DNA of 64,000 bases from Rhea pennata (taxonomy: Eukaryota; Chordata; Aves; Rheiformes; Rheidae): the NCBI RefSeq assembly GCF_028389875.1, contig NW_026907681.1:1612001-1676000 (forward strand), read 5' to 3'. Position 1 is the stretch's first letter; each line of letters opens with the position of its first letter. Position numbers and translations under genes: made by a program. Shown piece by piece: positions 39,136 to 61,910 of this stretch. Below the pieces are notes generated by a model. That model worked only from the letters and a program-made list of their open reading frames with translations, did no database searches and had not been told where the DNA came from.

Positions 39136-39768
39136 TGTCATAAGTTACTCTCTTGAAGGTTAATTCATACAGAGAGTTTGTTAAATCATGTGAACAATTT
39201 ATTTAATTAAGTAAGCAGCCACAAGCAAAATAGCGCTGGGCGGCTGGGGAGTCTCAGCTCCGCCAACGGCGCGCGCCTCCCTCACACACAGTCCCCCCTT
39301 ATAGTCTGCGTTGTAATCTCCCGGTGCGTCCCGCGCATGTGTGAGTTGCTGGGGGGGTCGTCTGAAGCTCTCTGGTGGTCGTGGAGAGGAAGGCCGTGGT
39401 CTTCTTCCGTCTCTTTATTTTGGTTTGTCTCCTTGTGAGTGATCACAGGGGTTTGCTTATCTGTTGTGTTGACTCCCTTTTGGGATGCTGTTCTGTGAGA
39501 AAATTACAGGTGCCTGCTTATCTTTTCTTTATCCTTTTACCTTCAAAACCTCTGAGCAGCTTGTTGCTTACTTCAGCTCTTCATAGTCCTGCAAGATAGC
39601 TAGGGCCCCGACACTGGTTCCACAAGGGGTCATATAAGCTTTTGTGCTTACCATAATTTATTTGTCTGACACCATGTCTCAACCCTGATTGTTGTAAAAC
39701 CTCCTCCTCCCCCTCCATCGGCTTATTCCTCCTTCTAAACAATGAACAAATAGTTACAATTTATTACA
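39136..39768 (-). repeat. LTR1 (3'-most LTR of the array)
   Basis: 633 bp with TG...CA ends. The promoter region reads TATAAGGGGGG on the minus strand (39,298-39,303) and AATAAA lies near 39,199. It shares diagnostic variants with LTR5, not with the inner LTRs. It adjoins POLE promoter DNA on the left. Confidence 0.95.
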
Positions 39769-39787
39769 ATCCCTCCTTTTTCTTTTT
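39769..39787 (-). other. Polypurine tract, unit A
   Basis: Minus-strand A- and G-rich run ending AAAGGAGGGAT directly before LTR1, the plus-strand primer site. Confidence 0.85.
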
Positions 39788-39789
39788 GG

Positions 39790-40059
39790 TTACTTATTTT
39801 GTCCATTGAATTCCTGGAGCGCCCGGCGACTCAACGCTAATGCGTCCGCATCATCGTCTAATTCAAGTGATCCATACTTAGCACGTACCAGCATTAGGTG
39901 TACAGCTTCTAGGCGGCTTTTTACAATTGCCATTATTTTATTAAAAATACATGGTCCAAAAGTTAATGTTGTTATTAACAGTAGTAAAGGCCCTGCTATG
40001 GGTGAAACACATTGTTCCTGTAGGTAGGTTACACGGTGTTGTGCGGAAACTAGGGGCAC
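39790..40059 (-). pseudogene. env: env remnant, unit A
   Basis: An 89-codon frame keeps only a short SU start region, out of its usual frame, joined to the TM anchor IAGPLLLLITTLTFGPC and the cytoplasmic tail. Fusion peptide and ectodomain are absent. Confidence 0.88.
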
Positions 40060-40409
40060 CTGCTGTCGTTACTTGCTGTATCTTCATATCTAATTAAACT
40101 CCACTGAAAAGGTCGATGGGGGTGGTGTCGTTGTAGGATACCGCAGCTGACCATGATAATAACTCTAATTCCCGTGTTCCGCAAGAGCTAGTCGGGGCCC
40201 ATTTCTCCTAATGTTATGTTTTACCTGGCCTCTTAACCTCCCCACCGTCTGCACTCCTCTGCCTCGCTTGTCAGTTCGGTTGCAGCGAACTACAAGGTAT
40301 TGGTTCTTCTCGGCAGCAGTAGTGTTCTTCAGGGGAATCTGTTAGAGAGCCTTTGTCTAGGAGTGGGGCCCCTTCTCTCATTACGGTACATGGACAGGGG
40401 AAATAATAC

Positions 40410-41297
40410 TTATCGAGTCCGTTTAAGCGTTAATTTTAAGTCGGCGGAGCCTGGAACCGCCCTCCACTCTTCTCCCAGGATCGGTCCTTTCACACGGCTG
40501 GCATGAGTCCACCCTTTTTCTGCAGTCCGAACAGCTGTTTCTGTAGTAAGCAAAACAACGTAGGGGCCTTCCCACCGAGGTGCTAATGAAGTCTCTTTCC
40601 ATGTTTTGATTAGAACTTTATCTCCGGGCTGTACTCGGTGTATGGCTATATCTAATGGGGGTCGCTGCACCACTAGGCCTCTTTTCTGTAACTCTCTAGG
40701 TCGGCTCATTAACTGTGTTAGGTAGGGCTGTAATTGAGTATGTTGCAAATTGGGGTGGTCAAGAGGCATCTCTAAATCATATGGCATACCATAAAGCATT
40801 TCGAAAGGCGAAAGCCCCACGCCAGTTCGGGGCTGCGTTCGTATGTTTAATAAAGCAAGCGGTAAGCATTTTACCCAGGACGCCTTAGTTTCTAGCATAA
40901 GTTTTGTTAACTGTTTTTTAATTTCACCATTCATTCATTCCACCTTTCCAGAGCTTTGAGGATGCCACGGAGTATGATATTCCCAGCTTACTCCTAAAGC
41001 TTTCATAGTTTCTCGGGACACCTTAGATATAAAATGGGGACCTCTATCAGAGTCAATTGTTTCTACAATTCCGTATCTGGGAATTATATTCTCAAGCAAT
41101 ATTTTTACCACAGTCTGAGCTGTAGCCCTTGCCGTAGGGAATGCTTCAACAAAATGTGTGAGATGGTCTACAATCACAAGCATATATTTGTACCGTCCTG
41201 TTTTTGGAAGTTCTGTAAAATCTAATTGAATTTTTGCAAAAGGTCGATGAGCCAGTTCTCGACCTCCCAACACTCTTTTTCCTAACATGTTGAGCAT
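40410..41297 (-). pseudogene. pol: Integrase core and C-terminal domain, unit A, interrupted by a stop
   Basis: Two abutting frames hold the catalytic core (QLDFTEL, DSDRGPHF, SSGKVE) and the C-terminal domain ending in the WEGPYVV motif. A TGA at about 40,934 separates them exactly in the third catalytic region; the other units have CGA there. Confidence 0.9.
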
Positions 41298-43086
41298 TCA
41301 CCTTTCGACAAGTTATGCAGTCATTCACAACCCTCTTTGCTATATTGTAAATTCCTACACACATATACTTTATAGCAAATTGATCTATCAATGCTTGAGT
41401 TCCCCAGTGCGTGTTCTCATGAAACCTCTGTAGCACTCCCAAGGCTACCGACTTTGGGAGTACTTCTCGCCCATCCGGCAGTACCCACTTTCCCTTATCA
41501 GCTTCTTTTATACCCATTTGTACCATCTTGTTCTTTTCTAGCGGCGTGAAGCAAAATAGTGAGTAAACTGGTCTGTGCAAATAACAGCGTTCATATTCAG
41601 GGGCCTCGTCCCCAGCCGCTTCCTCGAGGAAATTACACTGTATTCCTCTGACACTCCTTTCCTTCCAACAATCATAACATGTTAACTTCTTTAAATCCTT
41701 TCCACAATTTGGACGGTCTTCCCTCATCTTTATAACCTGTAAACTCATCAGGGCCGCTCGTTTAGCTTCCTGATCTGCCAAATTATTTCCTCTAATTTGA
41801 GGAGTAAAACCTCGCTGATGTCCTTTCACATGGACTATAGCAATCTCTTTTGGTTCTCTAATAGCCTGCAGGACCTGAGTAATCAGTTCCTGGTGTATCA
41901 ATCCCTTATCTTGCCAGTCCTCTATTTTCTCTAACTTTTTCCTAATGTCCGTCCAGGATTTGGCCACAAACTGAGTTTTAAGTAAGGCCCCTCCCACAGG
42001 AGTCCCTGGATCTAAGCCACTATACAACTGCAAGCTTTTTCGCAGCCTTTCTAACCATTCTGTCGGGGTCTCATCCCGCCTTTGCTGTTCATTAAAAGCC
42101 TTATTAATATTCTGTCCCCTTGGGACTGATTCCCTTATCCCCTGAATGATAATGGTTCTTAAGTCTTGCATATGACCGCGATGGATTGGGTCCTGGTTAT
42201 TCCAATTAGGCGACTGCATTGGCCACTTAACATCTGCTGCCGGACCTTGCTGGTGTTGTTGGTCCCAGATTCGCATGCCAGCTCGCCTAATCATCCCTCT
42301 TTCCTCAGATGTGAACAGGATTCCCAGGATGGACTGTAGCTCCTCCCAAGTGTAAATATTTGGTCCTAGAAACTGCTCTGCCACTCCCAGTCGGTCTTCT
42401 AGTAGGTTTCCCATTTCCTTCTTAAAATCTCTCACGTCCCCGGAATTAATGGGGACGGCTACATATCCTGTCCCCGGTTGGGGTCCTCCCATAGCTGTTT
42501 CCCGCAGTGGATATAATCCTCCTTCGAGACTTAACCCCTGTGCTCTAGTCTGACTCCTAGTTACTGGTCTCTGGGGACTAGGGTTAGCCTCGCCATCCGA
42601 CTCCCCCGAGGACGGAAGTTCAGTCGGCCCGGGAAGAGAAGGGGCCGTAGGTATAGGAGGGAGTATATAAGGGGGTGGCGATAATGGGATCTCTAATTCT
42701 CGCTTCTTTTTCCCCCGCCCTCCTTTTTCTTTTAATGGGTATAAAAGGGTTCTCACCTCTGGATTTATCCAGAGGTGTGCATACTCGCTCTCTTCTAAGC
42801 TGAAGGGCTCCTTTGAATTTACGTAACTATTTAGGGCCTGGCATATCCAGTCCTCAAATGAACCAAAAGGGGGCCAGAAAACACTTTCTCCTTTTATAGG
42901 TTTGTTTCCCCAGACTTCAATACAATAATATATCATCTTAACTTTACTTTTTCCCTGCCTAGAAGGGGAATCATCCCAATATTTAATCATCAATCCTAGT
43001 GGGCTATCTGGGGGAATGGGAGGTAAGCCTCCACTACAAACTCCCCCACCCATGGGACCAGAAGGCTTACTTTTCTTCTGTCCCAT
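41146..43086 (-). CDS. gag-pol: Gag-RNase H-integrase zinc finger fusion ORF, unit A
   Basis: Open frame of 646 codons from the MGQ start (Gly2 suits myristoylation). Residues 1-395 are Gag: matrix, PPPY late motif at 137-140, and capsid with the MHR-like RRDETPTEWLERL. At 395/396 it passes in frame into the end of RNase H (HVKGHQRG, NNLADQEAK) and the integrase zinc site H556-H560-C590-C593, then runs out of frame. Nucleocapsid, protease and reverse transcriptase are missing. The MGQ start is preferred over the upstream Met, which translates a CA repeat. This is a deletion product; expression is unknown. Confidence 0.85.
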   Translation of the reverse strand: MGQKKSKPSGPMGGGVCSGGLPPIPPDSPLGLMIKYWDDSPSRQGKSKVKMIYYCIEVWGNKPIKGESVFWPPFGSFEDWICQALNSYVNSKEPFSLEESEYAHLWINPEVRTLLYPLKEKGGRGKKKRELEIPLSPPPYILPPIPTAPSLPGPTELPSSGESDGEANPSPQRPVTRSQTRAQGLSLEGGLYPLRETAMGGPQPGTGYVAVPINSGDVRDFKKEMGNLLEDRLGVAEQFLGPNIYTWEELQSILGILFTSEERGMIRRAGMRIWDQQHQQGPAADVKWPMQSPNWNNQDPIHRGHMQDLRTIIIQGIRESVPRGQNINKAFNEQQRRDETPTEWLERLRKSLQLYSGLDPGTPVGGALLKTQFVAKSWTDIRKKLEKIEDWQDKGLIHQELITQVLQAIREPKEIAIVHVKGHQRGFTPQIRGNNLADQEAKRAALMSLQVIKMREDRPNCGKDLKKLTCYDCWKERSVRGIQCNFLEEAAGDEAPEYERCYLHRPVYSLFCFTPLEKNKMVQMGIKEADKGKWVLPDGREVLPKSVALGVLQRFHENTHWGTQALIDQFAIKYMCVGIYNIAKRVVNDCITCRKVNAQHVRKKSVGRSRTGSSTFCKNSIRFYRTSKNRTVQIYACDCRPSHTFC

Positions 43087-43458
43087 CTTCCGGAGTACCT
43101 TCACACACACACACACACATACCGCTTCCCCCTTTTCGTGGCCCAGTCCCTCGCGGGATGTGGGAACCGCACTACCGAGGGGTCCGCACTCGCTTCGTCC
43201 TTACTGGACGTCTCTCACGTGTACTCCGGGATACCCAACCCCAACCGAATGGATCACCGGCCTATACTTACTCAATCCTGAGTCTTCATTCGGTCTTCGT
43301 GCACAAAGATTACTTGGGGTTGCCGGCTCTTTTTTTTTTGCTTGTGGCTAATTTAGGGTTCGTCGGTGAAGGGCTTGAGTGAAAATCGCTCTCGGCAGAG
43401 GCCGCCGAACTCGGCGGGGCGCCTCCCCTTCCGAAGAGCTTTTCAGTCCATTGCCTTC

Positions 43459-43476
43459 ATCCGAGTCACGGCACCA
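43459..43476 (-). other. Primer binding site, unit A (tRNA-His type)
   Basis: Minus strand TGGTGCCGTGACTCGGAT, 4 bp inside LTR2. It equals the complement of the 3' end of tRNA-His, as in HERV-H. Identical in all four units. Confidence 0.88.
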
Positions 43477-43480
43477 AATT

Positions 43481-44114
43481 TGTCATAAGTTACTCTCTTG
43501 AAGGTTAATTCATACAGAGAGTTTGTTAAATCATGTGAACAATTTATTTAATTAAGTAAGCAGCCACAAGCAAAACAGCGCTGGGCGGCCGGGGAGTCTC
43601 AGCTCCGCCAACGGCACGCGCCTCCTTCACATACAGTCCCCTTTTTATAATCTGCGTTGTAACCTCCTGGGGCGTTTTGCACATGTGTGAGTTGCTGGGG
43701 GGGTCGTCTGAAGCTCTCTGGTGGTCGTGGAGAGGAAGGCCGTGGTCTTCTTCCGTCTCTTTATTTTGGTTTGTCTCCTTGTGAGTGATCACAGGGGTTT
43801 GCTTATCTGTTGTGTTGACTCCCTTTTGGGATGCTGTTCTGTGAGAAAATTACAGGTGCCTGCTTATCTTTTCTTTATCCTTTTACCTTCAAAACCTCTG
43901 AGCAGCTTGTTGCTTACTTCAGCTCTTCATAGTCCTGCAAGATAGCTAGGGCCCCGACACTGGTTCCACAAGGGGTCATATAAGCTTTTGTGCTTACCAT
44001 AATTTATTTGTCTGACACCATGTCTCAACCCTGATTGTTGTAAAACCTCCTCCTCCCCCTCCATCGGCTTATTCCTCCTTCTAAACAATGAACAAATAGT
44101 TACAATTTATTACA
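43481..44114 (-). repeat. LTR2 (inner type)
   Basis: 634 bp, TG...CA. The TATA region reads TTATAAAAAG on the minus strand (43,641-43,650), unlike the outer LTRs. Confidence 0.95.
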
Positions 44115-44135
44115 ATCCCTCCTTTTTCTTTTTGG

Positions 44136-45893
44136 TTACTTATTTTGTTCATTGAATTCCTGGAGCGCCCGGCGACTCAACTCTAATGCGTCCGCATCAT
44201 CGTCTAATTCAAGTGATTCATACTTAGCACGTACCAGCATTAGGTGTACAGCTTCTAGGCGGCTTTTTACAATTGCCATTATTTTATTAAAAATACATGG
44301 TCCAAAAGTTAATGTTATTATTAACAGTAGTAAAGGCCCTGCTATGGTTGACAACAAGGTGGTGAGCCAAGGTGAATGATTAAACCAGGATTCATTCCAG
44401 TTCTGTCGAGCCTCATTTTCTCTTTTTCGTTTTTCTAGACCCTCTCGGAGTTTCATCATGGTATCTCTTACCACTCCAGTGTGATCAGCATATACACAAC
44501 ACTCCTCTCGCAGGGTGGCACAAAGCCCTCCTTGTTGTAAAAAGACCAAATCTAATCCCCTACGATTTTGTAGTACTACCTCTGAGAGGGATCTAACTGA
44601 TTTTTCTAACGCCGAAATGGATTGCTCGATCCTGGCCAAATCTTCGTCAACTGCGATACGCAGAGAGGTGAACTCTTGGCTTTGTTTTACTAGCGAGGCA
44701 ACTCCAGTACCAGCTCCTGCAACCCCTAAAACCATTAATGTGGCCAGGGTTACAGTTGTGACTGGTTCCCTCTTTTCGAGATGGTAATCTGCTACAGTGT
44801 GGTGACTGTATATATATTCCTCAGAGTGGTATAGAATCCTTGGTATAATTATTACCTGTACACAAAAATCATGAGACGAATTGAAGCGTTTTAATGATAA
44901 GCATGGAGTGACTCCTAATGATGAGCATGCCCACCTCGTGTTGTTGGCCGGAATTAACCATTGGTGTGACTGGTCGCGATCCTCTAAGATGTTACAAAGA
45001 CTGCCCTTTCCTCTGGGGACGGTACCCACGCACCTACCGCTTCCAGATACCTGGGTTAGTGTTACCCCGATTTCTTGTCCCCAGTGGCATTGTGAGGGGT
45101 TACTTTCGTTTGAATAGACGGGATCGCCTAAATCTCCGATGGCCTCATAATATGGGGGTCTTATGTTAATACATAACCAGCAGCGTCTGGTTATATTTGG
45201 ATTTGTTTGATTCAACACTCGATAACTAGCATCTATGACTTTCCATATGCTGTTCCCAGATGTGATTCTATGTTCCCCTGCAATGGTGGGGACTACATCT
45301 GTAGGGAATGATTCTATTGCACTATTGGGAGGTGTTGTAGATAGGTCTGGCCCAAGGGTTTTTGTAGGTCGGGCCTCTAGGATTCCCTTTGACAGTACGC
45401 TATTTGGTCCGACTGGTTGGGAAATCCTGGCCTCCTCTTTTTTTATCAGTATGAGGCCTCCCCTATCAGGTCCGTGTGAATAGAATCTAACGCCCCACAT
45501 TTTCCCTAGTAACCAGCTGATATCTTCCGGCTTGGTTACATTTAGATACAGAACCTTGCAAATCTCCTCGTTCCTATAATGTCCTGTGTATCCCAAATTT
45601 TGTCCTCGCCATCCTTGGCGGGGATCTGCTCGACGACTACATCCTAGCGGTCCATAGCCCACTTCTAAGAACTTGTCGCGACCTGCCCCAGGATTCCAGT
45701 CTGTAGCAATGGTTTCACAGCCCCAATATGCACAATAGTATTTATTTGGATAATTACAATACCCCCTTCCCGGGTTTGAGCTCGGACAGAAGTAAAGTCC
45801 TGATCGGTTGAAACACATTGTTCCTGTAGTTAGGTTACACGGTGTAGTGCGGAAACTAGGGGCACCTGCTGTCGTTACTTGCTGTATCTTCAT
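44136..45893 (-). CDS. env: env ORF, unit B (585 codons, no signal peptide seen)
   Basis: Gammaretrovirus-type envelope. SU has CWLC at residues 238-241 and many Asn-x-Ser/Thr sites. A basic EKR at about 373-375 precedes the hydrophobic stretch VTLATLMVLGVAGAGTGVAS. TM has the LQNRRGLDLVFL region, CX6CC at 458-466, and an anchor at about 513-533. The annotated Met is not preceded by a hydrophobic leader, and an in-frame TAA lies three codons upstream. The true N-terminus is therefore broken or lost, and entry to the secretory pathway is doubtful. Confidence 0.87.
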   Translation of the reverse strand: MKIQQVTTAGAPSFRTTPCNLTTGTMCFNRSGLYFCPSSNPGRGYCNYPNKYYCAYWGCETIATDWNPGAGRDKFLEVGYGPLGCSRRADPRQGWRGQNLGYTGHYRNEEICKVLYLNVTKPEDISWLLGKMWGVRFYSHGPDRGGLILIKKEEARISQPVGPNSVLSKGILEARPTKTLGPDLSTTPPNSAIESFPTDVVPTIAGEHRITSGNSIWKVIDASYRVLNQTNPNITRRCWLCINIRPPYYEAIGDLGDPVYSNESNPSQCHWGQEIGVTLTQVSGSGRCVGTVPRGKGSLCNILEDRDQSHQWLIPANNTRWACSSLGVTPCLSLKRFNSSHDFCVQVIIIPRILYHSEEYIYSHHTVADYHLEKREPVTTVTLATLMVLGVAGAGTGVASLVKQSQEFTSLRIAVDEDLARIEQSISALEKSVRSLSEVVLQNRRGLDLVFLQQGGLCATLREECCVYADHTGVVRDTMMKLREGLEKRKRENEARQNWNESWFNHSPWLTTLLSTIAGPLLLLIITLTFGPCIFNKIMAIVKSRLEAVHLMLVRAKYESLELDDDADALELSRRALQEFNEQNK

Positions 45894-46215
45894 ATCTAAT
45901 TAAACTCCACTGAAAAGGTCGATGGGGGTGGTGTGGTTGTAGGATACCGCAGCTGACCATGATAATAACTCTAATTCCCGTGTTCCGCAAGAGCTAGTCG
46001 GGGCCCATTTCTCCTAATGTTATGTTTTACCTGGCCTCTTAACCTCCCCACCGTCTGCACTCCTCTGCCTCGCTTGTCAGTTCGGTTGCAGCGAACTACA
46101 AGGTATTGGTTCTTCTCGGCAGCAGTAGTGTTCTTCAGGGGAATCTGTTAGAGAGCCTTTGTATAGGAGTGGGGCCCCTTCTCTCATTACGGTACATGGA
46201 CAGGGGAAATAATAC

Positions 46216-47103
46216 TTATCGAGTCCGTTTAAGCGTTAATTTTAAGTCGGCGGAGCCTGGAACCGCCCTCCACTCTTCTCCCAGGATCGGTCCTTTCACA
46301 CGGCTGGCATGAGTCCACCCTTTTTCTGCAGTCCGAACAGCTGTTTCTGTAGTAAGCAAAACAACGTAGGGGCCTTCCCACCGAGGTGCTAATGAAGTCT
46401 CTTTCCATGTTTTGATTAGAACTTTATCTCCGGGCTGTACTCGGTGTATGACTATATCTAATGGGGGTCGCTGCACCACTAGGCCTCTTTTCTGTAACTC
46501 TCTAGGTCGGCTCATTAACTGTGTTAGGTAGGGCTGTAATTGAGTATGTTGCAAATTGGGGTGGTCAAGAGGCATCTCTAAATCATATGGCATACCATAA
46601 AGCATTTCGAAAGGCGAAAGCCCCACGCCAGTTCGGGGCTGCGTTCGTATGTTTAATAAAGCAAGCGGTAAGCATTTTACCCAGGACGCCTTAGTTTCTA
46701 GCATAAGTTTTGTTAACTGTTTTTTAATTTCACCATTCATTCGTTCCACCTTTCCAGAGCTTTGAGGATGCCACGGAGTATGATATTCCCAGCTTACTCC
46801 TAAAGCTTTCATAGTTTCTCGGGACACCTTAGATATAAAATGGGGACCTCTATCAGAGTCAATTGTTTCTACAATTCCGTATCTGGGAATTATATTCTCA
46901 AGCAATATTTTTACCACAGTCTGAGCTGTAGCCCTTGCCGTAGGGAATGCTTCAACAAAATGTGTGAGATGGTCTACAATCACAAGCATATATTTGTACC
47001 GTCCTGTTTTTGGAAGTTCTGTAAAATCTAATTGAATTTTTGCAAAAGGTCGATGAGCCAGTTCTCGACCTCCCAACACTCTTTTTCCTAACATGTTGAG
47101 CAT
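46216..47103 (-). pseudogene. pol: Integrase core and C-terminal domain, unit B
   Basis: A 295-codon frame contains D (QLDFTEL), D (DSDRGPHF) and E (KVERMNGE) in the D,D-35-E order and the C-terminal WEGPYVV domain. It overlaps the fusion ORF in another frame by about 150 bp, so the zinc finger and core are separated by a frameshift. Confidence 0.9.
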
Positions 47104-48892
47104 TCACCTTTCGACAAGTTATGCAGTCATTCACAACCCTCTTTGCTATATTGTAAATTCCTACACACATATACTTTATAGCAAATTGATCTATCAATGC
47201 TTGAGTTCCCCAGTGCGTGTTCTCATGAAACCTCTGTAGCACTCCCAAGGCTACCGACTTTGGGAGTACTTCTCGCCCATCCGGCAGTACCCACTTTCCC
47301 TTATCAGCTTCTTTTATACCCATTTGTACCATCTTGTTCTTTTCTAGCGGCGTGAAGCAAAATAGTGAGTAAACTGGTCTGTGCAAATAACAGCGTTCAT
47401 ATTCAGGGGCCTCGTCCCCAGCCGCTTCCTCGAGGAAATTACACTGTATTCCTCTGACACTCCTTTCCTTCCAACAATCATAACATGTTAACTTCTTTAA
47501 ATCCTTTCCACAATTTGGACGGTCTTCCCTCATCTTTATAACCTGTAAACTCATCAGGGCCGCTCGTTTAGCTTCCTGATCTGCCAAATTATTTCCTCTA
47601 ATTTGAGGAGTAAAACCTCGCTGATGTCCTTTCACATGGACTATAGCAATCTCTTTTGGTTCTCTAATAGCCTGCAGGACCTGAGTAATCAGTTCCTGGT
47701 GTATCAATCCCTTATCTTGCCAGTCCTCTATTTTCTCTAACTTTTTCCTAATGTCCGTCCAGGATTTGGCCACAAACTGAGTTTTAAGTAAGGCCCCTCC
47801 CACAGGAGTCCCTGGATCTAAGCCACTATACAACTGCAAGCTTTTTCGCAGCCTTTCTAACCATTCTGTCGGGGTCTCATCCCGCCTTTGCTGTTCATTA
47901 AAAGCCTTATTAATATTCTGTCCCCTTGGGACTGATTCCCTTATCCCCTGAATGATAATGGTTCTTAAGTCTTGCATATGACCGCGATGGATTGGGTCCT
48001 GGTTATTCCAATTAGGCGACTGCATTGGCCACTTAACATCTGCTGCCGGACCTTGCTGGTGTTGTTGGTCCCAGATTCGCATGCCAGCTCGCCTAATCAT
48101 CCCTCTTTCCTCAGATGTGAACAGGATTCCCAGGATGGACTGTAGCTCCTCCCAAGTGTAAATATTTGGTCCTAGAAACTGCTCTGCCACTCCCAGTCGG
48201 TCTTCTAGTAGGTTTCCCATTTCCTTCTTAAAATCTCTCACGTCCCCGGAATTAATGGGGACGGCTACATATCCTGTCCCCGGTTGGGGTCCTCCCATAG
48301 CTGTTTCCCGCAGTGGATATAATCCTCCTTCGAGACTTAACCCCTGTGCTCTAGTCTGACTCCTAGTTACTGGTCTCTGGGGACTAGGGTTAGCCTCGCC
48401 ATCCGACTCCCCCGAGGACGGAAGTTCAGTCGGCCCGGGAAGAGAAGGGGCCGTAGGTATAGGAGGGAGTATATAAGGGGGTGGCGATAATGGGATCTCT
48501 AATTCTCGCTTCTTTTTCCCCCGCCCTCCTTTTTCTTTTAATGGGTATAAAAGGGTTCTCACCTCTGGATTTATCCAGAGGTGTGCATACTCGCTCTCTT
48601 CTAAGCTGAAGGGCTCCTTTGAATTTACGTAACTATTTAGGGCCTGGCATATCCAGTCCTCAAATGAACCAAAAGGGGGCCAGAAAACACTTTCTCCTTT
48701 TATAGGTTTGTTTCCCCAGACTTCAATACAATAATATATCATCTTAACTTTACTTTTTCCCTGCCTAGAAGGGGAATCATCCCAATATTTAATCATCAAT
48801 CCTAGTGGGCTATCTGGGGGAATGGGAGGTAAGCCTCCACTACAAACTCCCCCACCCATGGGACCAGAAGGCTTACTTTTCTTCTGTCCCAT
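46952..48892 (-). CDS. gag-pol: Gag-RNase H-integrase zinc finger fusion ORF, unit B
   Basis: Same 646-codon architecture as in unit A. The deletion junction lies at about 47,707-47,710, where a short CCTTATC matches the corresponding place in the undeleted gag of unit D. Confidence 0.85.
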   Translation of the reverse strand: MGQKKSKPSGPMGGGVCSGGLPPIPPDSPLGLMIKYWDDSPSRQGKSKVKMIYYCIEVWGNKPIKGESVFWPPFGSFEDWICQALNSYVNSKEPFSLEESEYAHLWINPEVRTLLYPLKEKGGRGKKKRELEIPLSPPPYILPPIPTAPSLPGPTELPSSGESDGEANPSPQRPVTRSQTRAQGLSLEGGLYPLRETAMGGPQPGTGYVAVPINSGDVRDFKKEMGNLLEDRLGVAEQFLGPNIYTWEELQSILGILFTSEERGMIRRAGMRIWDQQHQQGPAADVKWPMQSPNWNNQDPIHRGHMQDLRTIIIQGIRESVPRGQNINKAFNEQQRRDETPTEWLERLRKSLQLYSGLDPGTPVGGALLKTQFVAKSWTDIRKKLEKIEDWQDKGLIHQELITQVLQAIREPKEIAIVHVKGHQRGFTPQIRGNNLADQEAKRAALMSLQVIKMREDRPNCGKDLKKLTCYDCWKERSVRGIQCNFLEEAAGDEAPEYERCYLHRPVYSLFCFTPLEKNKMVQMGIKEADKGKWVLPDGREVLPKSVALGVLQRFHENTHWGTQALIDQFAIKYMCVGIYNIAKRVVNDCITCRKVNAQHVRKKSVGRSRTGSSTFCKNSIRFYRTSKNRTVQIYACDCRPSHTFC

Positions 48893-49282: not shown

Positions 49283-49286
49283 AATT

Positions 49287-52021: not shown

Positions 52022-52909
52022 TTATCGAGTCCGTTTAAGCGTTAATTTTAAGTCGGCGGAGCCTGGAACCGCCCTCCACTCTTCTCCCAGGATCGGTCCT
52101 TTCACACGGCTGGCATGAGTCCACCCTTTTTCTGCAGTCCGAACAGCTGTTTCTGTAGTAAGCAAAACAACGTAGGGGCCTTCCCACCGAGGTGCTAATG
52201 AAGTCTCTTTCCATGTTTTGATTAGAACTTTATCTCCGGGCTGTACTCGGTGTATGGCTATATCTAATGGGGGTCGCTGCACCACTAGGCCTCTTTTCTG
52301 TAACTCTCTACGTCGGCTCATTAACTGTGTTAGGTAGGGCTGTAATTGAGTATGTTGCAAATTGGGGTGGTCAAGAGGCATCTCTAAATCATATGGCATA
52401 CCATAAAGCATTTCGAAAGGCGAAAGCCCCACGCCAGTTCGGGGCTGCGTTCGTATGTTTAATAAAGCAAGCGGTAAGCATTTTACCCAGGACGCCTTAG
52501 TTTCTAGCATAAGTTTTGTTAACTGTTTTTTAATTTCACCATTCATTCGTTCCACCTTTCCAGAGCTTTGAGGATGCCACGGAGTATGATATTCCCAGCT
52601 TACTCCTAAAGCTTTCATAGTTTCTCGGGACACCTTAGATATAAAATGGGGACCTCTATCAGAGTCAATTGTTTCTACAATTCCGTATCTGGGAATTATA
52701 TTCTCAAGCAATATTTTTACCACAGTCTGAGCTGTAGCCCTTGCCGTAGGGAATGCTTCAACAAAATGTGTGAGATGGTCTACAATCACAAGCATATATT
52801 TGTACCGTCCTGTTTTTGGAAGTTCTGTAAAATCTAATTGAATTTTTGCAAAAGGTCGATGAGCCAGTTCTCGACCTCCCAACACTCTTTTTCCTAACAT
52901 GTTGAGCAT
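52022..52909 (-). pseudogene. pol: Integrase core and C-terminal domain, unit C
   Basis: A 295-codon frame as in unit B, with Arg for Pro in the MSRPREL segment. It is frameshifted relative to the zinc-finger part. Confidence 0.9.
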
Positions 52910-54707
52910 TCACCTTTCGACAAGTTATGCAGTCATTCACAACCCTCTTTGCTATATTGTAAATTCCTACACACATATACTTTATAGCAAATTGATCTAT
53001 CAATGCTTGAGTTCCCCAGTGCGTGTTCTCATGAAACCTCTGTAGCACTCCCAAGGCTACCGACTTTGGGAGTACTTCTCGCCCATCCGGCAGTACCCAC
53101 TTTCCCTTATCAGCTTCTTTTATACCCATTTGTACCATCTTGTTCTTTTCTAGCGGCGTGAAGCAAAATAGTGAGTAAACTGGTCTGTGCAAATAACAGC
53201 GTTCATATTCAGGGGCCTCGTCCCCAGCCGCTTCCTCGAGGAAATTACACTGTATTCCTCTGACACTCCTTTCCTTCCAACAATCATAACATGTTAACTT
53301 CTTTAAATCCTTTCCACAATTTGGACGGTCTTCCCTCATCTTTATAACCTGTAAACTCATCAGGGCCGCTCGTTTAGCTTCCTGATCTGCCAAATTATTT
53401 CCTCTAATTTGAGGAGTAAAACCTCGCTGATGTCCTTTCACATGGACTATAGCAATCTCTTTTGGTTCTCTAATAGCCTGCAGGACCTGAGTAATCAGTT
53501 CCTGGTGTATCAATCCCTTATCTTGCCAGTCCTCTATTTTCTCTAACTTTTTCCTAATGTCCGTCCAGGATTTGGCCACAAACTGAGTTTTAAGTAAGGC
53601 CCCTCCCACAGGAGTCCCTGGATCTAAGCCACTATACAACTGCAAGCTTTTTCGCAGCCTTTCTAACCATTCTGTCGGGGTCTCATCCCGCCTTTGCTGT
53701 TCATTAAAAGCCTTATTAATATTCTGTCCCCTTGGGACTGATTCCCTTATCCCCTGAATGATAATGGTTCTTAAGTCTTGCATATGACCGCGATGGATTG
53801 GGTCCTGGTTATTCCAATTAGGCGACTGCATTGGCCACTTAACATCTGCTGCCGGACCTTGCTGGTGTTGTTGGTCCCAGATTCGCATGCCAGCTCGCCT
53901 AATCATCCCTCTTTCCTCAGATGTGAACAGGATTCCCAGGATGGACTGTAGCTCCTCCCAAGTGTAAATATTTGGTCCTAGAAACTGGTCCACCTGCTCT
54001 GCCACTCCCAGTCGGTCTTCTAGTAGGTTTCCCATTTCCTTCTTAAAATCTCTCACGTCCCCGGAATTAATGGGGACGGCTACATATCCTGTCCCCGGTT
54101 GGGGTCCTCCCATAGCTGTTTCCCGCAGTGGATATAATCCTCCTTCGAGACTTAACCCCTGTGCTCTAGTCTGACTCCTAGTTACTGGTCTCTGGGGACT
54201 AGGGTTAGCCTCGCCATCCGACTCCCCCGAGGACGGAAGTTCAGTCGGCCCGGGAAGAGAAGGGGCCGTAGGTATAGGAGGGAGTATATAAGGGGGTGGC
54301 GATAATGGGATCTCTAATTCTCGCTTCTTTTTCCCCCGCCCTCCTTTTTCTTTTAATGGGTATAAAAGGGTTCTCACCTCTGGATTTATCCAGAGGTGTG
54401 CATACTCGCTCTCTTCTAAGCTGAAGGGCTCCTTTGAATTTACGTAACTATTTAGGGCCTGGCATATCCAGTCCTCAAATGAACCAAAAGGGGGCCAGAA
54501 AACACTTTCTCCTTTTATAGGTTTGTTGCCCCAGACTTCAATACAATAATATATCATCTTAACTTTACTTTTTCCCTGCCTAGAAGGGGAATCATCCCAA
54601 TATTTAATCATCAATCCTAGTGGGCTATCCGGGGGAATGGGAGGTAAGCCTCCACTACAAACTCCCCCACCCATGGGACCAGAAGGCTTACTTTTCTTCT
54701 GTCCCAT
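52758..54707 (-). CDS. gag-pol: Gag-RNase H-integrase zinc finger fusion ORF, unit C
   Basis: 649 codons, three more than A and B because of the QVD insertion at about residue 238. Junction at about 53,513-53,516. All other domains are as in unit A. Confidence 0.85.
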   Translation of the reverse strand: MGQKKSKPSGPMGGGVCSGGLPPIPPDSPLGLMIKYWDDSPSRQGKSKVKMIYYCIEVWGNKPIKGESVFWPPFGSFEDWICQALNSYVNSKEPFSLEESEYAHLWINPEVRTLLYPLKEKGGRGKKKRELEIPLSPPPYILPPIPTAPSLPGPTELPSSGESDGEANPSPQRPVTRSQTRAQGLSLEGGLYPLRETAMGGPQPGTGYVAVPINSGDVRDFKKEMGNLLEDRLGVAEQVDQFLGPNIYTWEELQSILGILFTSEERGMIRRAGMRIWDQQHQQGPAADVKWPMQSPNWNNQDPIHRGHMQDLRTIIIQGIRESVPRGQNINKAFNEQQRRDETPTEWLERLRKSLQLYSGLDPGTPVGGALLKTQFVAKSWTDIRKKLEKIEDWQDKGLIHQELITQVLQAIREPKEIAIVHVKGHQRGFTPQIRGNNLADQEAKRAALMSLQVIKMREDRPNCGKDLKKLTCYDCWKERSVRGIQCNFLEEAAGDEAPEYERCYLHRPVYSLFCFTPLEKNKMVQMGIKEADKGKWVLPDGREVLPKSVALGVLQRFHENTHWGTQALIDQFAIKYMCVGIYNIAKRVVNDCITCRKVNAQHVRKKSVGRSRTGSSTFCKNSIRFYRTSKNRTVQIYACDCRPSHTFC

Positions 54708-55079
54708 CTTCCGGAGTACCTTCACACACACACACACACACACCGCTTCCCCCTTTTCGTGGCCCAGTCTCTCGCGGGATGTGGGAACCGCACTACCGAG
54801 GGGTCCGCACTCGCTTCGTCCTTACTGGACGTCTCTCACGTGTACTCCGGGATACCCAACCCCAACCGAATGGATCACCGGCCTATACTTACTCAATCCT
54901 GAGTCTTCATTCGGTCTTCGTGCACAAAGATTACTTGGGGTTGCCGGCTCTTTTTTTTTTGCTTGTGGCTAATTTAGGGTTCGTCGGTGAAGGGCTTGAG
55001 TGAAAATCGCTCTCGGCAGAGGCCGCCGAACTCGGCGGGGCGCCTCCCCTTCCGAAGAGCTTTTCAGTCCATTGCCTTC

Positions 55080-55097
55080 ATCCGAGTCACGGCACCA
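55080..55097 (-). other. Primer binding site, unit C (tRNA-His type)
   Basis: Same 18 bases, 4 bp from LTR4. Confidence 0.87.
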
Positions 55098-55101
55098 AAT
55101 T

Positions 55102-55735
55102 TGTCATAAGTTACTCTCTTGAAGGTTAATTCATACAGAGAGTTTGTTAAATCATGTGAACAATTTATTTAATTAAGTAAGCAGCCACAAGCAAAACAGC
55201 GCTGGGCGGCCGGGGAGTCTCAGCTCCGCCAACGGCACGCGCCTCCTTCACATACAGTCCCCTTTTTATAATCTGCGTTGTAATCTCCTGGGGCGTTTTG
55301 CACATGTGTGAGTTGCTGGGGGGGTCGTCTGAAGCTCTCTGGTGGTCGTGGAGAGGAAGGCCGTGGTCTTCTTCCGTCTCTTTATTTTGCTTTGTCTCCT
55401 TGTGAGTGATCACAGGGGTTTGCTTATCTGTTGTGTTGACTCCCTTTTGGGATGCTGTTCTGTGAGAAAATTACAGGTGCCTGCTTATCTTTTCTTTATC
55501 CTTTTACCTTCAAAACCTCTGAGCAGCTTGTTGCTTACTTCAGCTCTTCATAGTCCTGCAAGATAGCTAGGGCCCCGACACTGGTTCCACAAGGGGTCAT
55601 ATAAGCTTTTGTGCTTACCATAATTTATTTGTCTGACACCATGTCTCAACCCTGATTGTTGTAAAACCTCCTCCTCCCCCTCCATCGGCTTATTCCTCCT
55701 TCTAAACAATGAACAAATAGTTACAATTTATTACA
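55102..55735 (-). repeat. LTR4 (inner type, with one outer-type variant)
   Basis: 634 bp. It has the inner TATA region, but reads TAATCTCC where LTR2/3 read TAACCTCC, matching the outer LTRs at that base. Confidence 0.94.
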
Positions 55736-55756
55736 ATCCCTCCTTTTTCTTTTTGG

Positions 55757-57514
55757 TTACTTATTTTGTTCATTGAATTCCTGGAGCGCCCGGCGACTCA
55801 ACTCTAATGCGTCCGCATCATCGTCTAATTCAAGTGATTCATACTTAGCACGTACCAGCATTAGGTGTACAGCTTCTAGGCGGCTTTTTACAATTGCCAT
55901 TATTTTATTAAAAATACATGGTCCAAAAGTTAATGTTATTATTAACAGTAGTAAAGGCCCTGCTATGGTTGACAACAAGGTGGTGAGCCAAGGTGAATGA
56001 TTAAACCAGGATTCATTCCAGTTCTGTCGAGCCTCATTTTCTCTTTTTCGTTTTTCTAGACCCTCTCGGAGTTTCATCATGGTATCTCTTACCACTCCAG
56101 TGTGATCAGCATATACACAACATTCCTCTCGCAGGGTGGCACAAAGCCCTCCTTGTTGTAAAAAGACCAAATCTAATCCCCTACGATTTTGTAGTACTAC
56201 CTCTGAGAGGGATCTAACTGATTTTTCTAACGCCGAAATGGATTGCTCGATCCTGGCCAAATCTTCGTCAACTGCGATACGCAGAGAGGTGAACTCTTGG
56301 CTTTGTTTTACTAGCGAGGCAACTCCAGTACCAGCTCCTGCAACCCCTAAAACCATTAATGTGGCCAGGGTTACAGTTGTGACTGGTTCCCTCTTTTCGA
56401 GATGGTAATCTGCTACAGTGTGGTGACTGTATATATATTCCTCAGAGTGGTATAGAATCCTTGGTATAATTATTACCTGTACACAAAAATCATGAGACGA
56501 ATTTAAGAGTTTTAATGATAAGCATGGAGTGACTCCTAATGATGAGCATGCCCACCTCGTGTTGTTGGCCGGAATTAACCATTGGTGTGACTGGTCGCGA
56601 TCCTCTAAGATGTTACAAAGACTGCCCTTTCCTCTGGGGACGGTACCCACGCACCTACCGCTTCCAGATACCTGGGTTAGTGTTACCCCGATTTCTTGTC
56701 CCCAGTGGCATTGTGAGGGGTTACTTTCGTTTGAATAGACGGGATCGCCTAAATCTCCGATGGCCTCATAATATGGGGGTCTTATGTTAATACATAACCA
56801 GCAGCGTCTGGTTATATTTGGATTTGTTTGATTCAACACTCGATAACTAGCATCTATGACTTTCCATATGCTGTTCCCAGATGTGATTCTATGTTCCCCT
56901 GCAATGGTGGGGACTACATCTGTAGGGAATGATTCTATTGCACTATTGGGAGGTGTTGTAGATAGGTCTGGCCCAAGGGTTTTTGTAGGTCGGGCCTCTA
57001 GGATTCCCTTTGACAGTACGCTATTTGGTCCGACTGGTTGGGAAATCCTGGCCTCCTCTTTTTTTATCAGTATGAGGCCTCCCCTATCAGGTCCGTGTGA
57101 ATAGAATCTAACGCCCCACATTTTCCCTAGTAACCAGCTGATATCTTCCGGCTTGGTTACATTTAGATACAGAACCTTGCAAATCTCCTCGTTCCTATAA
57201 TGTCCTGTGTATCCCAAATTTTGTCCTCGCCATCCTTGGCGGGGATCTGCTCGACGACTACATCCTAGCGGTCCATAGCCCACTTCTAAGAACTTGTCGC
57301 GACCTGCCCCAGGATTCCAGTCTGTAGCAATGGTTTCACAGCCCCAATATGCACAATAGTATTTATTTGGATAATTACAATACCCCCTTCCCGGGTTTGA
57401 GCTCGGACAGAAGTAAAGTCCTGATCGGTTGAAACACATTGTTCCTGTAGTTAGGTTACACGGTGTAGTGCGGAAACTAGGGGCACCTGCTGTCGTTACT
57501 TGCTGTATCTTCAT
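55757..57514 (-). CDS. env: env ORF, unit D (585 codons)
   Basis: Same architecture as units B and C, with a two-residue difference (LL for RF before NSSHDF). The same TAA lies upstream in frame and there is no signal peptide. The frame is uninterrupted in a unit whose gag and pol are broken. Confidence 0.87.
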   Translation of the reverse strand: MKIQQVTTAGAPSFRTTPCNLTTGTMCFNRSGLYFCPSSNPGRGYCNYPNKYYCAYWGCETIATDWNPGAGRDKFLEVGYGPLGCSRRADPRQGWRGQNLGYTGHYRNEEICKVLYLNVTKPEDISWLLGKMWGVRFYSHGPDRGGLILIKKEEARISQPVGPNSVLSKGILEARPTKTLGPDLSTTPPNSAIESFPTDVVPTIAGEHRITSGNSIWKVIDASYRVLNQTNPNITRRCWLCINIRPPYYEAIGDLGDPVYSNESNPSQCHWGQEIGVTLTQVSGSGRCVGTVPRGKGSLCNILEDRDQSHQWLIPANNTRWACSSLGVTPCLSLKLLNSSHDFCVQVIIIPRILYHSEEYIYSHHTVADYHLEKREPVTTVTLATLMVLGVAGAGTGVASLVKQSQEFTSLRIAVDEDLARIEQSISALEKSVRSLSEVVLQNRRGLDLVFLQQGGLCATLREECCVYADHTGVVRDTMMKLREGLEKRKRENEARQNWNESWFNHSPWLTTLLSTIAGPLLLLIITLTFGPCIFNKIMAIVKSRLEAVHLMLVRAKYESLELDDDADALELSRRALQEFNEQNK

Positions 57515-57836
57515 ATCTAATTAAACTCCACTGAAAAGGTCGATGGGGGTGGTGTGGTTGTAGGATACCGCAGCTGACCATGATAATAACTCTAATTCCC
57601 GTGTTCCGCAAGAGCTAGTCGGGGCCCATTTCTCCTAATGTTATGTTTTACCTGGCCTCTTAACCTCCCCACCGTCTGCACTCCTCTGCCTCGCTTGTCA
57701 GTTCGGTTGCAGCGAACTACAAGGTATTGGTTCTTCTCGGCAGCAGTAGTGTTCTTCAGGGGAATCTGTTAGAGAGCCTTTGTCTAGGAGTGGGGCCCCT
57801 TCTCTCATTACGGTACATGGACAGGGGAAATAATAC

Positions 57837-58361
57837 TTATCGAGTCCGTTTAAGCGTTAATTTTAAGTCGGCGGAGCCTGGAACCGCCCTCCACTCTTCT
57901 CCCAGGATCGGTCCTTTCACACGGCTGGCATGAGTCCACCCTTTTTCTGCAGTCCGAACAGCTGTTTCTGTAGTAAGCAAAACAACGTAGGGGCCTTCCC
58001 ACCGAGGTGCTAATGAAGTCTCTTTCCATGTTTTGATTAGAACTTTATCTCCGGGCTGTACTCGGTGTATGACTATATCTAATGGGGGTCGCTGCACCAC
58101 TAGGCCTCTTTTCTGTAACTCTCTAGGTCGGCTCATTAACTGTGTTAGGTAGGGCTGTAATTGAGTATGTTGCAAAGTGGGGTGGTCAAGAGGCATCTCT
58201 AAATCATATGGCATACCATAAAGCATTTCGAAAGGCGAAAGCCCCACGCCAGTTCGGGGCTGCGTTCGTATGTTTAATAAAGCAAGCGGTAAGCATTTTA
58301 CCCAGGACGCCTTAGTTTCTAGCATAAGTTTTGTTAACTGTTTTTTAATTTCACCATTCAT
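57837..58361 (-). pseudogene. pol: Integrase C-terminal domain remnant, unit D
   Basis: 174 codons from MNGEIKKQLTKLMLE to the pol stop, including WEGPYVVLL. The zinc finger and the first two catalytic aspartates are missing because of the deletion to the right. Confidence 0.9.
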
Positions 58362-58420
58362 TCGTTCTACCTTTCCAGAGCTTTGAGCTTTCCAGAGCTT
58401 TCCAGGCTAACTGGACGCTA
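58362..58420 (-). other. Deletion junction with duplicated filler, unit D
   Basis: RT sequence ends after VQLAW and integrase sequence starts near ERMNGE. Between them CTTTCCAGAG occurs twice within about 25 bp, which suggests a slipped repair or template-switch junction. Confidence 0.8.
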
Positions 58421-59013
58421 GCCTGCCTTACCACTTCTTCATCCTTTCCTGCTATCAACAGATCATCCACATACTGTACTAACCTCACTCCCGGCACTTT
58501 ATTATAGTCCTGCAGAATCTGTTCCAGGGCCTGTCCGAATAAATTTGGGGATTCAGTAAATCCTTGAGGGAGGACAGTCTATCTTAGTTGCTGTTTTCTA
58601 TGGGTATCTGGGTCCTCCCATTCAAAGGCAAAATAATCCCTGCTGCTCTCATCCAAAGGACATGCCCAAAACGCATCCTTTAAATCTATCACACTGTACC
58701 ATTGATCATCCGGGTGTAACTGATTTAACAGAGTATGTGGATTTGCTACTACTGGGAACCTAGTCACAGTTCTCTTATTGATTTCCCTCAAATCGTGCAC
58801 CAATCTATATTTGCCATCTTTTTTCCTTACTGGTAATATTGGGGTATTAAAAGGGGACATACAAGGTTCCAATAGCCCCTGTCGTAGTAACCTCTGAATT
58901 TCAGGTTTTAATTCCCGCCTGCCCTCTTCGGACAGGGGATATTGCTTAATTCTCGTTGGTACACCCGGGTTAGTTATAGTTACCTTAAAAGGTTTAATAT
59001 TTAATTTGCCCAC
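58400..59013 (-). pseudogene. pol: Reverse transcriptase remnant, unit D
   Basis: RT palm sequence includes LPVRKKDGKYRLVHDLREIN, the catalytic region VIDLKDAFWACPL, LPQGFTESPNLFGQ and the YVDD box in QYVDDLLIAG. A TAG at about 58,576-58,578 interrupts the frame just before TVLPQGF. The connection and RNase H domains are deleted. Confidence 0.9.
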
Positions 59014-59423
59014 ACTATCTGGAGTTTACCAAACGTCCGGGTTTATGTTTTGTTCATCCTCTATTCGGAGAGGACACAATTTAATTTGTAGTCTATTATC
59101 TATCACTTCTAAACTTATGCCTAATTCTATTATCAAATCTCTACCTAACAGGTTATACTCAGCTTCGGGTACCAAAAGTAAAGGTCCCACACCTATCTTG
59201 GAACCTGTTTCGATTAATACTTCTTTTATAACGAGAACCCCAAATGGTTCTCCTTTTGCCCCAATTACTTGTACCCTTTCTGCCGAGGTAAGGTTTGGAC
59301 CATAGATCTTTCAGCCCCTGTGTCTATGAGGAATTCCATTTCCTCACGCTGGGGACCCACTTTTAATTTTATCAAGGGCTCGTTTTTTTCTCGGGTCCCC
59401 AGCAAATAGAGCCCCTGACACCC
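59014..59423 (-). pseudogene. pro: Retroviral protease remnant, unit D
   Basis: Follows gag after a TAG, the arrangement used for readthrough in gammaretroviruses. The active-site region EMEFLIDTGAERS is intact. A frame change lies just downstream (about 59,290-59,310), the rest reads GPLLLVPEAEYNLLGRDLII in another frame, and a TAA occurs at 59,026-59,028. Confidence 0.82.
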
Positions 59424-60885
59424 CTACTCATCCTTGAACATCTGCTCATCCTCTTTTCTCTGTCGACATTCTCTCTTAATATGACCCTTTCTACTACAAT
59501 AAAAACAGATCACATTTCTTTGTCCCTGACCATTTCTCCCTTCTTTTCTCTCAAGCTTCCCACGCACCATCCTAGGCCTTCCTCTTTGACCTTCCCGTAC
59601 TGCTGCCACCATCATTCATACTTGTTTCTTCTCTTTTTCATCCTCTCTCCTAACATACACCTTCTGTGCCTCTCTCAGGAGTTCATCTAAGCCCTTATCT
59701 TGCCAGTCCTCTATTTTCTCTAACTTTTTCCTAATGTCCGTCCAGGATTTGGCCACAAATTGAGTTTTAAGTAAGGCCCCTCCCACAGGAGTCCCTGGAT
59801 CTAAGCCACTATACAACTGCAAGCTTTTTCACAGCCTTTCTAACCATTCTGTCGGGGTCTCATCCCGCCTTTGCTGTTCATTAAAAGCCTTATTAGTATT
59901 CTGTCCCCTTGGGACTGATTCCCTTATCCCCTGAATGATAATGGTTCTTAAGTCTTGCATATGACCGCGATGGATTGGGTCCTGGTTATTCCAATTAGGC
60001 GACTGCATCGGCCACTTAACATCTGCTGCCAGACCTTGCTGGTGTTGTTGGTCCCAGATTCGCATGCCAGCTCGCCTAATCATCCCTCTTTCCTCAAATG
60101 TGAACAGGATTCCCAGGATGGACTGTAGCTCCTCCCAAGTGTAAATATTTGGTCCTAGAAACTGGTCCACCTGCTCTGCCACTCCCAGTGGGTCTTCTAG
60201 TAGGTTTCCCATTTCCTTCTTAAAATCTCTCACGTCCCCGGAATTAATGGGGACGGCTACATATCCCGTCCCCGGTTGGGGTCCTCCCATAGCTATTTCC
60301 CGCAGTGGATGTAATCCTCCTTCGAGACTTAACCCCTGTGCTCTAGTCTGACTCCTAGTTACTGGTCTCTGGGGACTAGGGTTAGCCTCGCCATCCGACT
60401 CCCCCGAGGACGGAAGTTCAGTTGGCCCGGGAAGAGAAGGGGCCGTAGGTATAGGAGGGAGTATATAAGGGGGTGGCGATAATGGGATCTCTAATTCTCG
60501 CTTCTTTTTTCCCCCGCCCTCCTTTTTCTTTTAATGGGTATAAAAGGGTTCTCGCCTCTGGATTTATCCAGAGGTGTGCATACTCGCTCTCTTCTAAGCT
60601 GAAGGGCTCCTTTGAATTTACGTAACTATTTAGGGCCTGGCATATCCAGTCCTCAAATGAACCAAAAGGGGGCCAGAAAACACTTTCTCCTTTTATAGGT
60701 TTGTTGCCCCAGACTTCAATACAATAATATATCATCTTAACTTTACTTTTTCCCCGCCTAGAAGGGGAATCATCCCAATATTTAATCATCAATCCTAGTG
60801 GGCTATCCGGGGGAATGGGAGGTAAGCCTCCACTACAAACTCCCCCACCCATGGGACCAGAAGGCTTACTTTTCTTCTGTCCCAT
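59421..60885 (-). pseudogene. gag: gag, unit D, broken
   Basis: Starts at the same MGQ and keeps matrix, capsid and a nucleocapsid with one zinc knuckle (CFYCSRKGHIKREC). An extra T at about 60,507 shifts the frame after GKK, before the PPPY motif. A TGA near 59,828 replaces an Arg codon after EWLERL, and another TGA near 59,616 precedes the nucleocapsid. It shows what A-C have lost between capsid and RNase H. Confidence 0.9.
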
Positions 60886-61255
60886 CTTCCGGAGTACCTT
60901 CACACACACACACACACACACACCGCTTCCCCCTTTTCGTGGCCCAGTCCCTCGCGGGATGTGGGAACCGCACTACCGAGGGGTCCGCACTCGCTTCGTC
61001 CTTACTGGACGTCTCTCACGTGTACTCCGGGATACCCAACCCCAACCGAATGGATCACCGGCCTATACTTACTCAATCCTGAGTCTTCATTCAGTCTTCG
61101 TGCACAAAGATTACTTGGGGTTGCCGGCTCCTTTTTGCTTGTGGCTAATTTAGGGTTCGTCGGTGAAGGGCTTGAGTGAAAATCGCTCTCGGCAGAGGCC
61201 GCCGAACTCGGCGGGGCGCCTCCCCTTCCGAAGAGCTTTTCAGTCCATTGCCTTC

Positions 61256-61273
61256 ATCCGAGTCACGGCACCA
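61256..61273 (-). other. Primer binding site, unit D (tRNA-His type)
   Basis: Same 18 bases as the other units, 4 bp from LTR5; this is the first primer site of the whole array. Confidence 0.88.
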
Positions 61274-61339
61274 AATTTGTCATAAGTTACTCTCTTGAAG
61301 GTTAATTCATACAGAGAGTTTGTTAAATCATGTGAACAA

Positions 61340-61345
61340 TTTATT
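61340..61345 (-). terminator. LTR poly(A) signal
   Basis: AATAAA on the minus strand about 95 bp downstream of the TATA box; conserved in all five LTRs. Confidence 0.7.
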
Positions 61346-61439
61346 TAATTAAGTAAGCAGCCACAAGCAAAACAGCGCTGGGCGGCCGGGGAGTCTCAGC
61401 TCCGCCAACGGCGCGCACCTCCCTCACACACAGTCCCCC

Positions 61440-61446
61440 CTTATAG
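61440..61446 (-). promoter_or_regulatory. LTR TATA box
   Basis: CTATAAG on the minus strand followed by a G run; the likely core promoter for the array if active. The inner LTRs have TTATAAAAAG. Confidence 0.65.
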
Positions 61447-61910
61447 TCTGCGTTGTAATCTCCCGGTGCGTCCCGCGCATGTGTGAGTTGCTGGGGGGGT
61501 CGTCTGAAGCTCTCTGGTGGTCGTGGAGAGGAAGGCCGTGGTCGTCTTCTGTCTCTTTATTTTGGTTTGTCTCCTTGTGAGTGATCACAGGGGTTTGCTT
61601 ATCTGTTGTGTTGACTCCCTTTTGGGATGCTGTTCTGTGAGAAAATTACAGGCGCCTGCTTATCTTTTCTTTATCCTTTTACCTTCAAAACCTCTGAGCA
61701 GCTTGTTGCTTACTTCAGCTCTTCATAGTCCTGCAAGATAGCTAGGGCCCCGACACTGGTTCCACAAGGGGTCATATAAGCTTTTGTGCTTACCATAATT
61801 TATTTGTCTGACACCATGTCTCAACCCTGACTGTTGTAAAACCTCCTCCTCCCCCTCCATCGGCTTATTCCTCCTTCTAAACAATGAACAAAGAGTTACA
61901 ATTTATTACA

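Follow-up and report, generated by a model that had tools for sequence, protein, structure and literature searches.

A five-LTR, four-unit tandem provirus array in Rhea pennata: a mosaic probably produced by homologous recombination

Structure of the locus

The window (the whole stretch of 64,000 nucleotides of Rhea pennata DNA that was analysed) carries on its left side a DNA-polymerase-B exonuclease exon, which judging by its domain and neighbourhood probably belongs to POLE, as well as P2X exons; among solved structures, P2X purinoceptor 2 is the best relative of the latter. A 912-bp direct repeat, 97.8% identical between 15266-16177 and 19671-20582, lies in and before the P2X exon region. 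An array of endogenous retrovirus (ERV) sequences occupies positions 39136-61910, equivalent to C144:1651136-1673910 in the assembly; in it, five LTRs in the same direction (L1-L5) delimit four ERV units (A-D) on the minus strand (Table 1). The left flank (LF) has an uninserted copy within the window at 6404-12837, and the LRRC52-like exon in the right flank (RF) is 97% identical to a Rhea pennata protein.

Table 1. Features of the array and its flanks in window coordinates; resident and core types are assigned by sequence comparison
Feature	Position	Strand	Remark
Left flank LF	32821-39135		duplicated POLE-side fragment
LTR L1	39136-39768	-	outer, 3′ LTR of unit A, resident type
Unit A	39136-43480	-	left end (about 39136-40000) resident type, core type from 40079
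Resident-to-core switch bracket in A	39971-40079		contains env-deletion junction; 6-bp GGTTGA repeat at ends
LTR L2	43481-44114	-	common to A and B, core type
Unit B	43481-49286	-	entirely core type
Env ORF of B	44136-45899	-	587 aa, TLV_coat
Core-specific pol segment of B	46777-47703	-	gag followed directly by RNase H/integrase N part; no protease or RT; same in A, C
LTR L3	49287-49920	-	common to B and C, core type
Unit C	49287-55101	-	entirely core type
Env ORF of C	49942-51705	-	protein identical to that of B
LTR L4	55102-55735	-	common to C and D, core type
Unit D	55102-61277	-	core type up to about 58174, resident type from 58368
Env ORF of D	55757-57520	-	587-aa frame; 2 aa changes vs B
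Core-to-resident switch bracket in D	58174-58368		40747-40941 in A's numbering
Resident-type pol segment of D	58388-59684	-	N-terminal RT part; C-terminal RT part, integrase N part missing
LTR L5	61278-61910	-	outer, 5′ LTR of unit D, resident type
Right flank RF	61911-64000	+	LRRC52-like first exon at 62415-62732

The LTRs measure 633, 634, 634, 634 and 633 bp (L1 to L5), and every one starts with TGTCAT and finishes with ATTACA (TG..CA). In all four internal regions, an 18-base primer-binding-site motif, which presumably reads as tRNA-His, adjoins the right LTR (at 43459, 49265, 55080 and 61256) and a polypurine-tract motif adjoins the left LTR (at 39769, 44115, 49921 and 55736); because each internal region possesses both motifs, the three inner LTRs are truly shared. 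The locus has the arrangement of a tandem LTR-sharing provirus, in which three or more LTRs of one direction bound two or more internal regions and the inner LTRs have a primer-binding site on one side and a polypurine tract on the other. These results reproduce the positions given in the preliminary description (five direct LTRs at 39,136, 43,481, 49,287, 55,102 and 61,278, bounding four internal regions) and bear out its statement that the internal regions share LTRs.

The protein domains suggest that the ERV of the array is gammaretrovirus-like (class I). A domain profile scan of ORFs from units A, B and D gave matches above the cut-off to Gag p30 (PF02093), the MLV-type integrase C-terminus (PF18697) and the MLV/TLV-type Env (PF00429), and the RNase H match in the scanned ORFs was sub-threshold. 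Env resembles MLV-type and syncytin chains when matched to solved chains, and its best named relatives are bird sequences. The first approximately 75 aa of one relative (P0001) fall outside the open env frame of B, the unit compared, and as C and D share the same 587-aa frame, the idea of an env dosage arising from three env ORFs was dropped. Complete pol is absent from all four units, which are not equivalent: A, B and C have one pol deletion in common, D has another, and A lacks 1460 bp of env at a junction between 39999 and 40000. In B, gag p30 runs directly into the RNase H match, and the pol segment at 46777-47690 is identical in A, B and C (0/914). An Rfam search and a tRNA scan performed with bacterial settings gave no match.

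No target-site duplication (TSD) surrounds the array: the left flank reads CAGTTGCG and the right flank CAAATGAC, with no 4-6 bp match between them even when the LTR ends were shifted by up to 3 bases. The three family members on other contigs for which both ends were fetched (L088, L090 and L091) possess TSDs of 4-5 bp (CAGG, GGGTG and CTTCT); L089 stood outside this comparison, its right end lying beyond the fetched stretch. LF and RF are not contiguous at an empty site, and each continues otherwise in uninserted copies. In 21 fetched uninserted copies, as well as in the one within the window, LF runs on into the sequence found at 12838-13137 of the window (91-100% identity), and RF is preceded by TTATTCAGTG in all seven LTR-free copies. 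The flanks of the array thus originate from different places and not from one integration site.

Mosaic of the four units

Private substitutions are distributed unequally between the outer units. In the left part, 10 sites are private to A and 1 to D, and in the right part none is private to A and 15 are private to D (Fisher p = 2e-6); the left-part count was made without a 66-bp LTR cluster, without the env stretch that A lacks and without the integrase stretch, which by itself has 1 A-private and 2 D-private sites. In the right part, A equals B (0/1578) and C differs from both by 4 substitutions and 9 bp, giving the grouping ((A,B),C),D; in the left part A is the outlier, and the closest pair is B and C. 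The near identity of B and C noted in the preliminary description was confirmed, the two differing by 4/3286 substitutions on the left, 4/1578 on the right and one 9-bp indel. On the left both middle units agree with D and on the right with A, as expected of unequal crossing over, a pattern not exclusive to that process because it would also follow if a core tandem had entered ready-made. One column (2971) is discordant, with A equal to C and B equal to D. Among the LTRs, L2, L3 and L4 differ mutually by 1-3 bases, L1 differs from L5 by 8 and L5 from L2 by 20. Thirteen changes within 66 bp set L1 and L5 apart from L2-L4, and 0 of 100000 random placements were as tight; L077, L083 and other proviruses show mixed states in this stretch, indicating that it has been shuffled within the family.

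Four segments taken from the units were compared with 10 single proviruses, L082 and L087 being omitted from the site table since their integrase piece is only partly alignable. The array mixes two ERV types: its outer ends belong to the type resident in the amplified region (resident type), and its core, which takes in B and C entirely, A on the right and D on the left, belongs to a type with a pol deletion (core type). The left end of A is nearest to L028 (3/864; the next of the 10 proviruses is at 11/864), and L1 is likewise nearest, among seven left LTRs compared, to the left LTR of L028 (3/633); L028 retains env, which is absent in part from A. The gag of D is nearest to L083 (11/1573) and L078 (12/1566), with L028 at 17/1299. 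As the ends of A and D have different nearest relatives, the resident parent is not any one of the proviruses sampled. Among the 15 gag sites private to D, 8 show states that the majority of the 10 resident proviruses carry, whereas the other 7 do not, so that the right end of D is of resident type with changes of its own. An earlier reading, in which A and D were the original pair and B and C derived mosaics, was abandoned: the pattern stands, but the resident proviruses show that A and D are mixed and that B and C are core.

The pol region separates the two types in the same manner. All 12 fetched proviral units at loci having LF, RF or X3 (another left partner of RF), that is, 10 single loci and two tandem units, carry the D-type RT fragment, and the core pol segment was found in none of the 12. 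The pol junction of D is fully matched at at least 11 other places, all on C144, C18 and C147 (best 40 of 108 candidates), and the core pol junction is fully matched elsewhere only on C28, in provirus L088 (best 40 of 123 candidates). An 11-bp integrase deletion of units A-D occurs otherwise only in L088 among the proviruses aligned. The env deletion of A is widespread, its junction being matched at at least 22 other places, none of which reaches the length of A including the 11-bp deletion (best 40 of 99 candidates). L088, which has a 4-bp TSD, is a sister provirus of the core type and not its direct source. Its divergence from A, B and C amounts to 0.55% for the core pol segment, 1.4-1.7% for gag and env and 1.6-2.2% for the integrase piece, and the LTR on its left is closer to L1 (4/633) and L5 (6/633) than to L2 (16/633).

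The two switches between types lie approximately 0.67-0.97 kb apart in unit coordinates, and since they differ in place, one simple crossover does not explain both. The core tract is circularly permuted, with both its start and its end inside one integrase stretch. Four A-private bases beside the env-deletion junction (40002, 40024, 40040 and 40129) fit neither sampled type, and L077 has one of them. Divergence within the core is 0-0.3% in the LTR, env and right part and reaches 0.8% in the integrase piece of A, which is 0.6-0.8% from those of B, C and D; the LTR pairs of TSD-bearing proviruses differ by 9/635, 10/635 and 16/632.

Paralogous loci with other unit numbers

The array lies within an amplicon family observed on C144, C18, C149, C147 and C138, in which the POLE-side fragment occurs at at least 40 places and the LRRC52-like fragment at 26, with ERVs joining different flanks. 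Among the LF loci (best 40 of 169 candidates), 22, including the window's second copy, are uninserted and 18 are inserted; the latter comprise the present array, 12 solo LTRs followed by a flank designated X2, two solo LTRs and two proviruses followed by RF, and L087. These counts are lower bounds, as the RF list includes LF copies missing from the LF list. All 26 candidate RF loci were scored: besides the array, seven solo LTRs and four single proviruses are joined to LF, one solo LTR, five single proviruses and one two-unit tandem have X3 as their left partner, and the remaining seven lack an LTR. The LF-ERV-RF join therefore recurs at 11 other loci, with a solo LTR in 7 and one provirus in 4, and loci paralogous within one genome differ in unit number. 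The simplest reading is that this mismatched join predates the array and was multiplied along with the region. Members of one ERV family also mark swap points between duplicated gene fragments, connecting no fewer than three right and two left flanks.

The two-unit tandem (L085 and L086, C144:2299397-2312005) shares a truncated LTR between internal regions that differ at 4 positions in 5515, and its middle and right LTRs have a common deletion. The same deletion is present in the right LTR of the related L084 (C144:2110076-2116689), which has one unit, the state to be predicted if copies recombined to duplicate a unit. Among the best 40 of 355 candidates, the only inner LTRs flanked by two intact neighbours were the three of the present array; the search misses shorter cases, the truncated middle LTR of L085/L086 being absent from its matches listed. 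None of the loci examined represents the proposed two- or three-unit precursor.

At L087 (C18:538900-548800), LF is combined with a different right flank beginning GTTGC, and the same five bases occur one base in from the end of LF, which may reflect a disturbed TSD or chance. L087 was considered as the original insertion at LF, a reading against which its right flank counts, since after GTTGC it does not continue like the empty site.

Origin of the array and comparison with known tandems

Taken as a whole, the array is probably a real product of homologous recombination, with a resident provirus, the entry of core-type sequence and two steps of unequal crossing over, rather than of one integration. 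A defective gammaretrovirus-like resident provirus would have sat in an amplified composite between the POLE-side and LRRC52-like fragments, and core-type sequence would have recombined into it, leaving the outer ends resident and making the interior core. Unequal crossing over of misaligned units would then have proceeded in two steps, most simply from A-D through A-C-D to A-B-C-D, each new middle unit receiving its left half from the right-hand unit and its right half from the left-hand unit. We infer this order from the units themselves: the identity of A and B in the right part, from which C is set off, fits the formation of B after C. The mosaic alone cannot tell stepwise crossovers from a ready-made core tandem, and only this identity favours the steps. 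Unequal recombination had already been proposed in the preliminary description; that proposal is strengthened by the unit mosaic and by same-flank paralogues with other unit numbers, but the two types and the mismatched flanks make the multiplication of a single provirus an incomplete account.

The core type would have entered either by exchange with a genomic copy or by recombination of cDNA together with a conversion tract, and we favour the former, in which another genomic copy would have supplied the core type by ectopic exchange. The latter, which we regard as possible but unlikely, holds that core-type viral cDNA (a one-LTR circle or a linear form) recombined homologously into the resident provirus independently of integrase and was subsequently amplified. 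It would explain the circular permutation of the core tract and the persistence of resident-type sequence on both sides, and no other full-length family tandem that could act as donor was present among the matches listed (best 40 of 355 candidates). However, a circle entering by a single crossover should place both switch points together, so that their observed separation demands a conversion tract, and a recombination of cDNA in the germ line would leave no distinctive trace. A concatenated intermediate, the other route proposed earlier, may have brought in the second type, but the integration of one concatemer is not supported. Were the cDNA route true, an outcome we rate as a long way from probable, it would represent yeast-like recombination of extrachromosomal ERV DNA in the germ line of a bird, and hence a vertebrate, seeding a tandem array without integrase.

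An assembly artefact, in which two or more near-identical proviruses were joined or repeated by the assembler, looks unlikely as judged from the assembly alone, and we consider it improbable. The different ancestral origin of the flanks, the divergence of only about 0.14% between B and C and the ampliconic contig would all suit such an error, but within the same assembly the flank join recurs at 11 other loci with a solo LTR or one provirus, every unit has deletions or variants of its own, and a second LTR-sharing tandem exists on C144. It is very improbable that two nearby independent insertions were fused by LTR-LTR recombination with deletion of the intervening host DNA and then expanded. 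Fusion would be compatible with the absent TSD and the unlike flanks and may explain the first meeting of the POLE-side and LRRC52-like flanks; it was set aside for the array once the same join had been found with solo LTRs and single proviruses, most simply predating it, and fused insertions alone would not surround a core of one type with ends of the other. That a concatemeric or read-through tandem intermediate integrated once, a route discussed in the case of rice LTR tandems, is hardly credible: it would yield shared LTRs in one orientation but does not agree with the missing TSD, against 4-5 bp in three family members on other contigs, or with the differing deletions of the units.

Tandem LTR-sharing proviruses are already known as a kind, of which the rhea array is a variant. 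According to PMC11807958, the HERV-K (HML-2) loci 7p22.1 and 6q14.1 are tandem proviruses with three LTRs and two units, which, like the rhea array, have several internal regions bounded by shared LTRs and a variable unit number; the variation there is between people at one locus, whereas the rhea array has five LTRs, four units and two subtypes, and its variation lies between paralogous loci of one genome. Rice and other plants contain tandem LTR-retrotransposons that share inner LTRs in variable number (PMC11899658). In that paper, two rice loci have 4-5 bp TSDs and are each interpreted as a single insertion, a perfect 5-nt TSD is present in 10 of 28 selected rice tandems, and the flanks and TSDs are used to argue against two-insertion fusion at the rice loci, the choice between complex insertion and later recombination being left open. 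The rhea array resembles these tandems in its shared inner LTRs and differs from them in having no TSD and in being a mosaic of two subtypes. The same paper (PMC11899658) describes centromeric tandem LTR elements of kangaroos that share LTRs, ascribed to LTR-LTR recombination, whereas the rhea array lies among amplified gene fragments and has its switch points in the pol region. It also mentions that LTR elements of yeast can insert into resident elements independently of integrase, a route that would give tandems inside a resident element without new integration and that is for the rhea array a candidate reading only. A search by titles and the beginnings of abstracts, which most subscription papers lay outside, found no paper on a comparable bird array. 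In the rhea, one genome holds solo-LTR, one-, two- and four-unit states between related flanks, and the internal marks of the four-unit state suggest an order of steps.

Other repeated series were observed in the same assembly. A series on C139 spaced at 7821 bp was considered as an LTR-sharing array and rejected, the one stretch fetched consisting of an ERV piece and about 5 kb of self-similar repeats; in this stretch (L092, C139:540300-548300), the repeats show 75-81% identity in the matches listed. Five RVT_1 matches lie in a row at a spacing of about 11.79 kb at C144:1398797-1446477, and eight RVT_1 matches in a row at a spacing of about 4253 bp at C148:794004-824439 are probably another tandem retroelement array.
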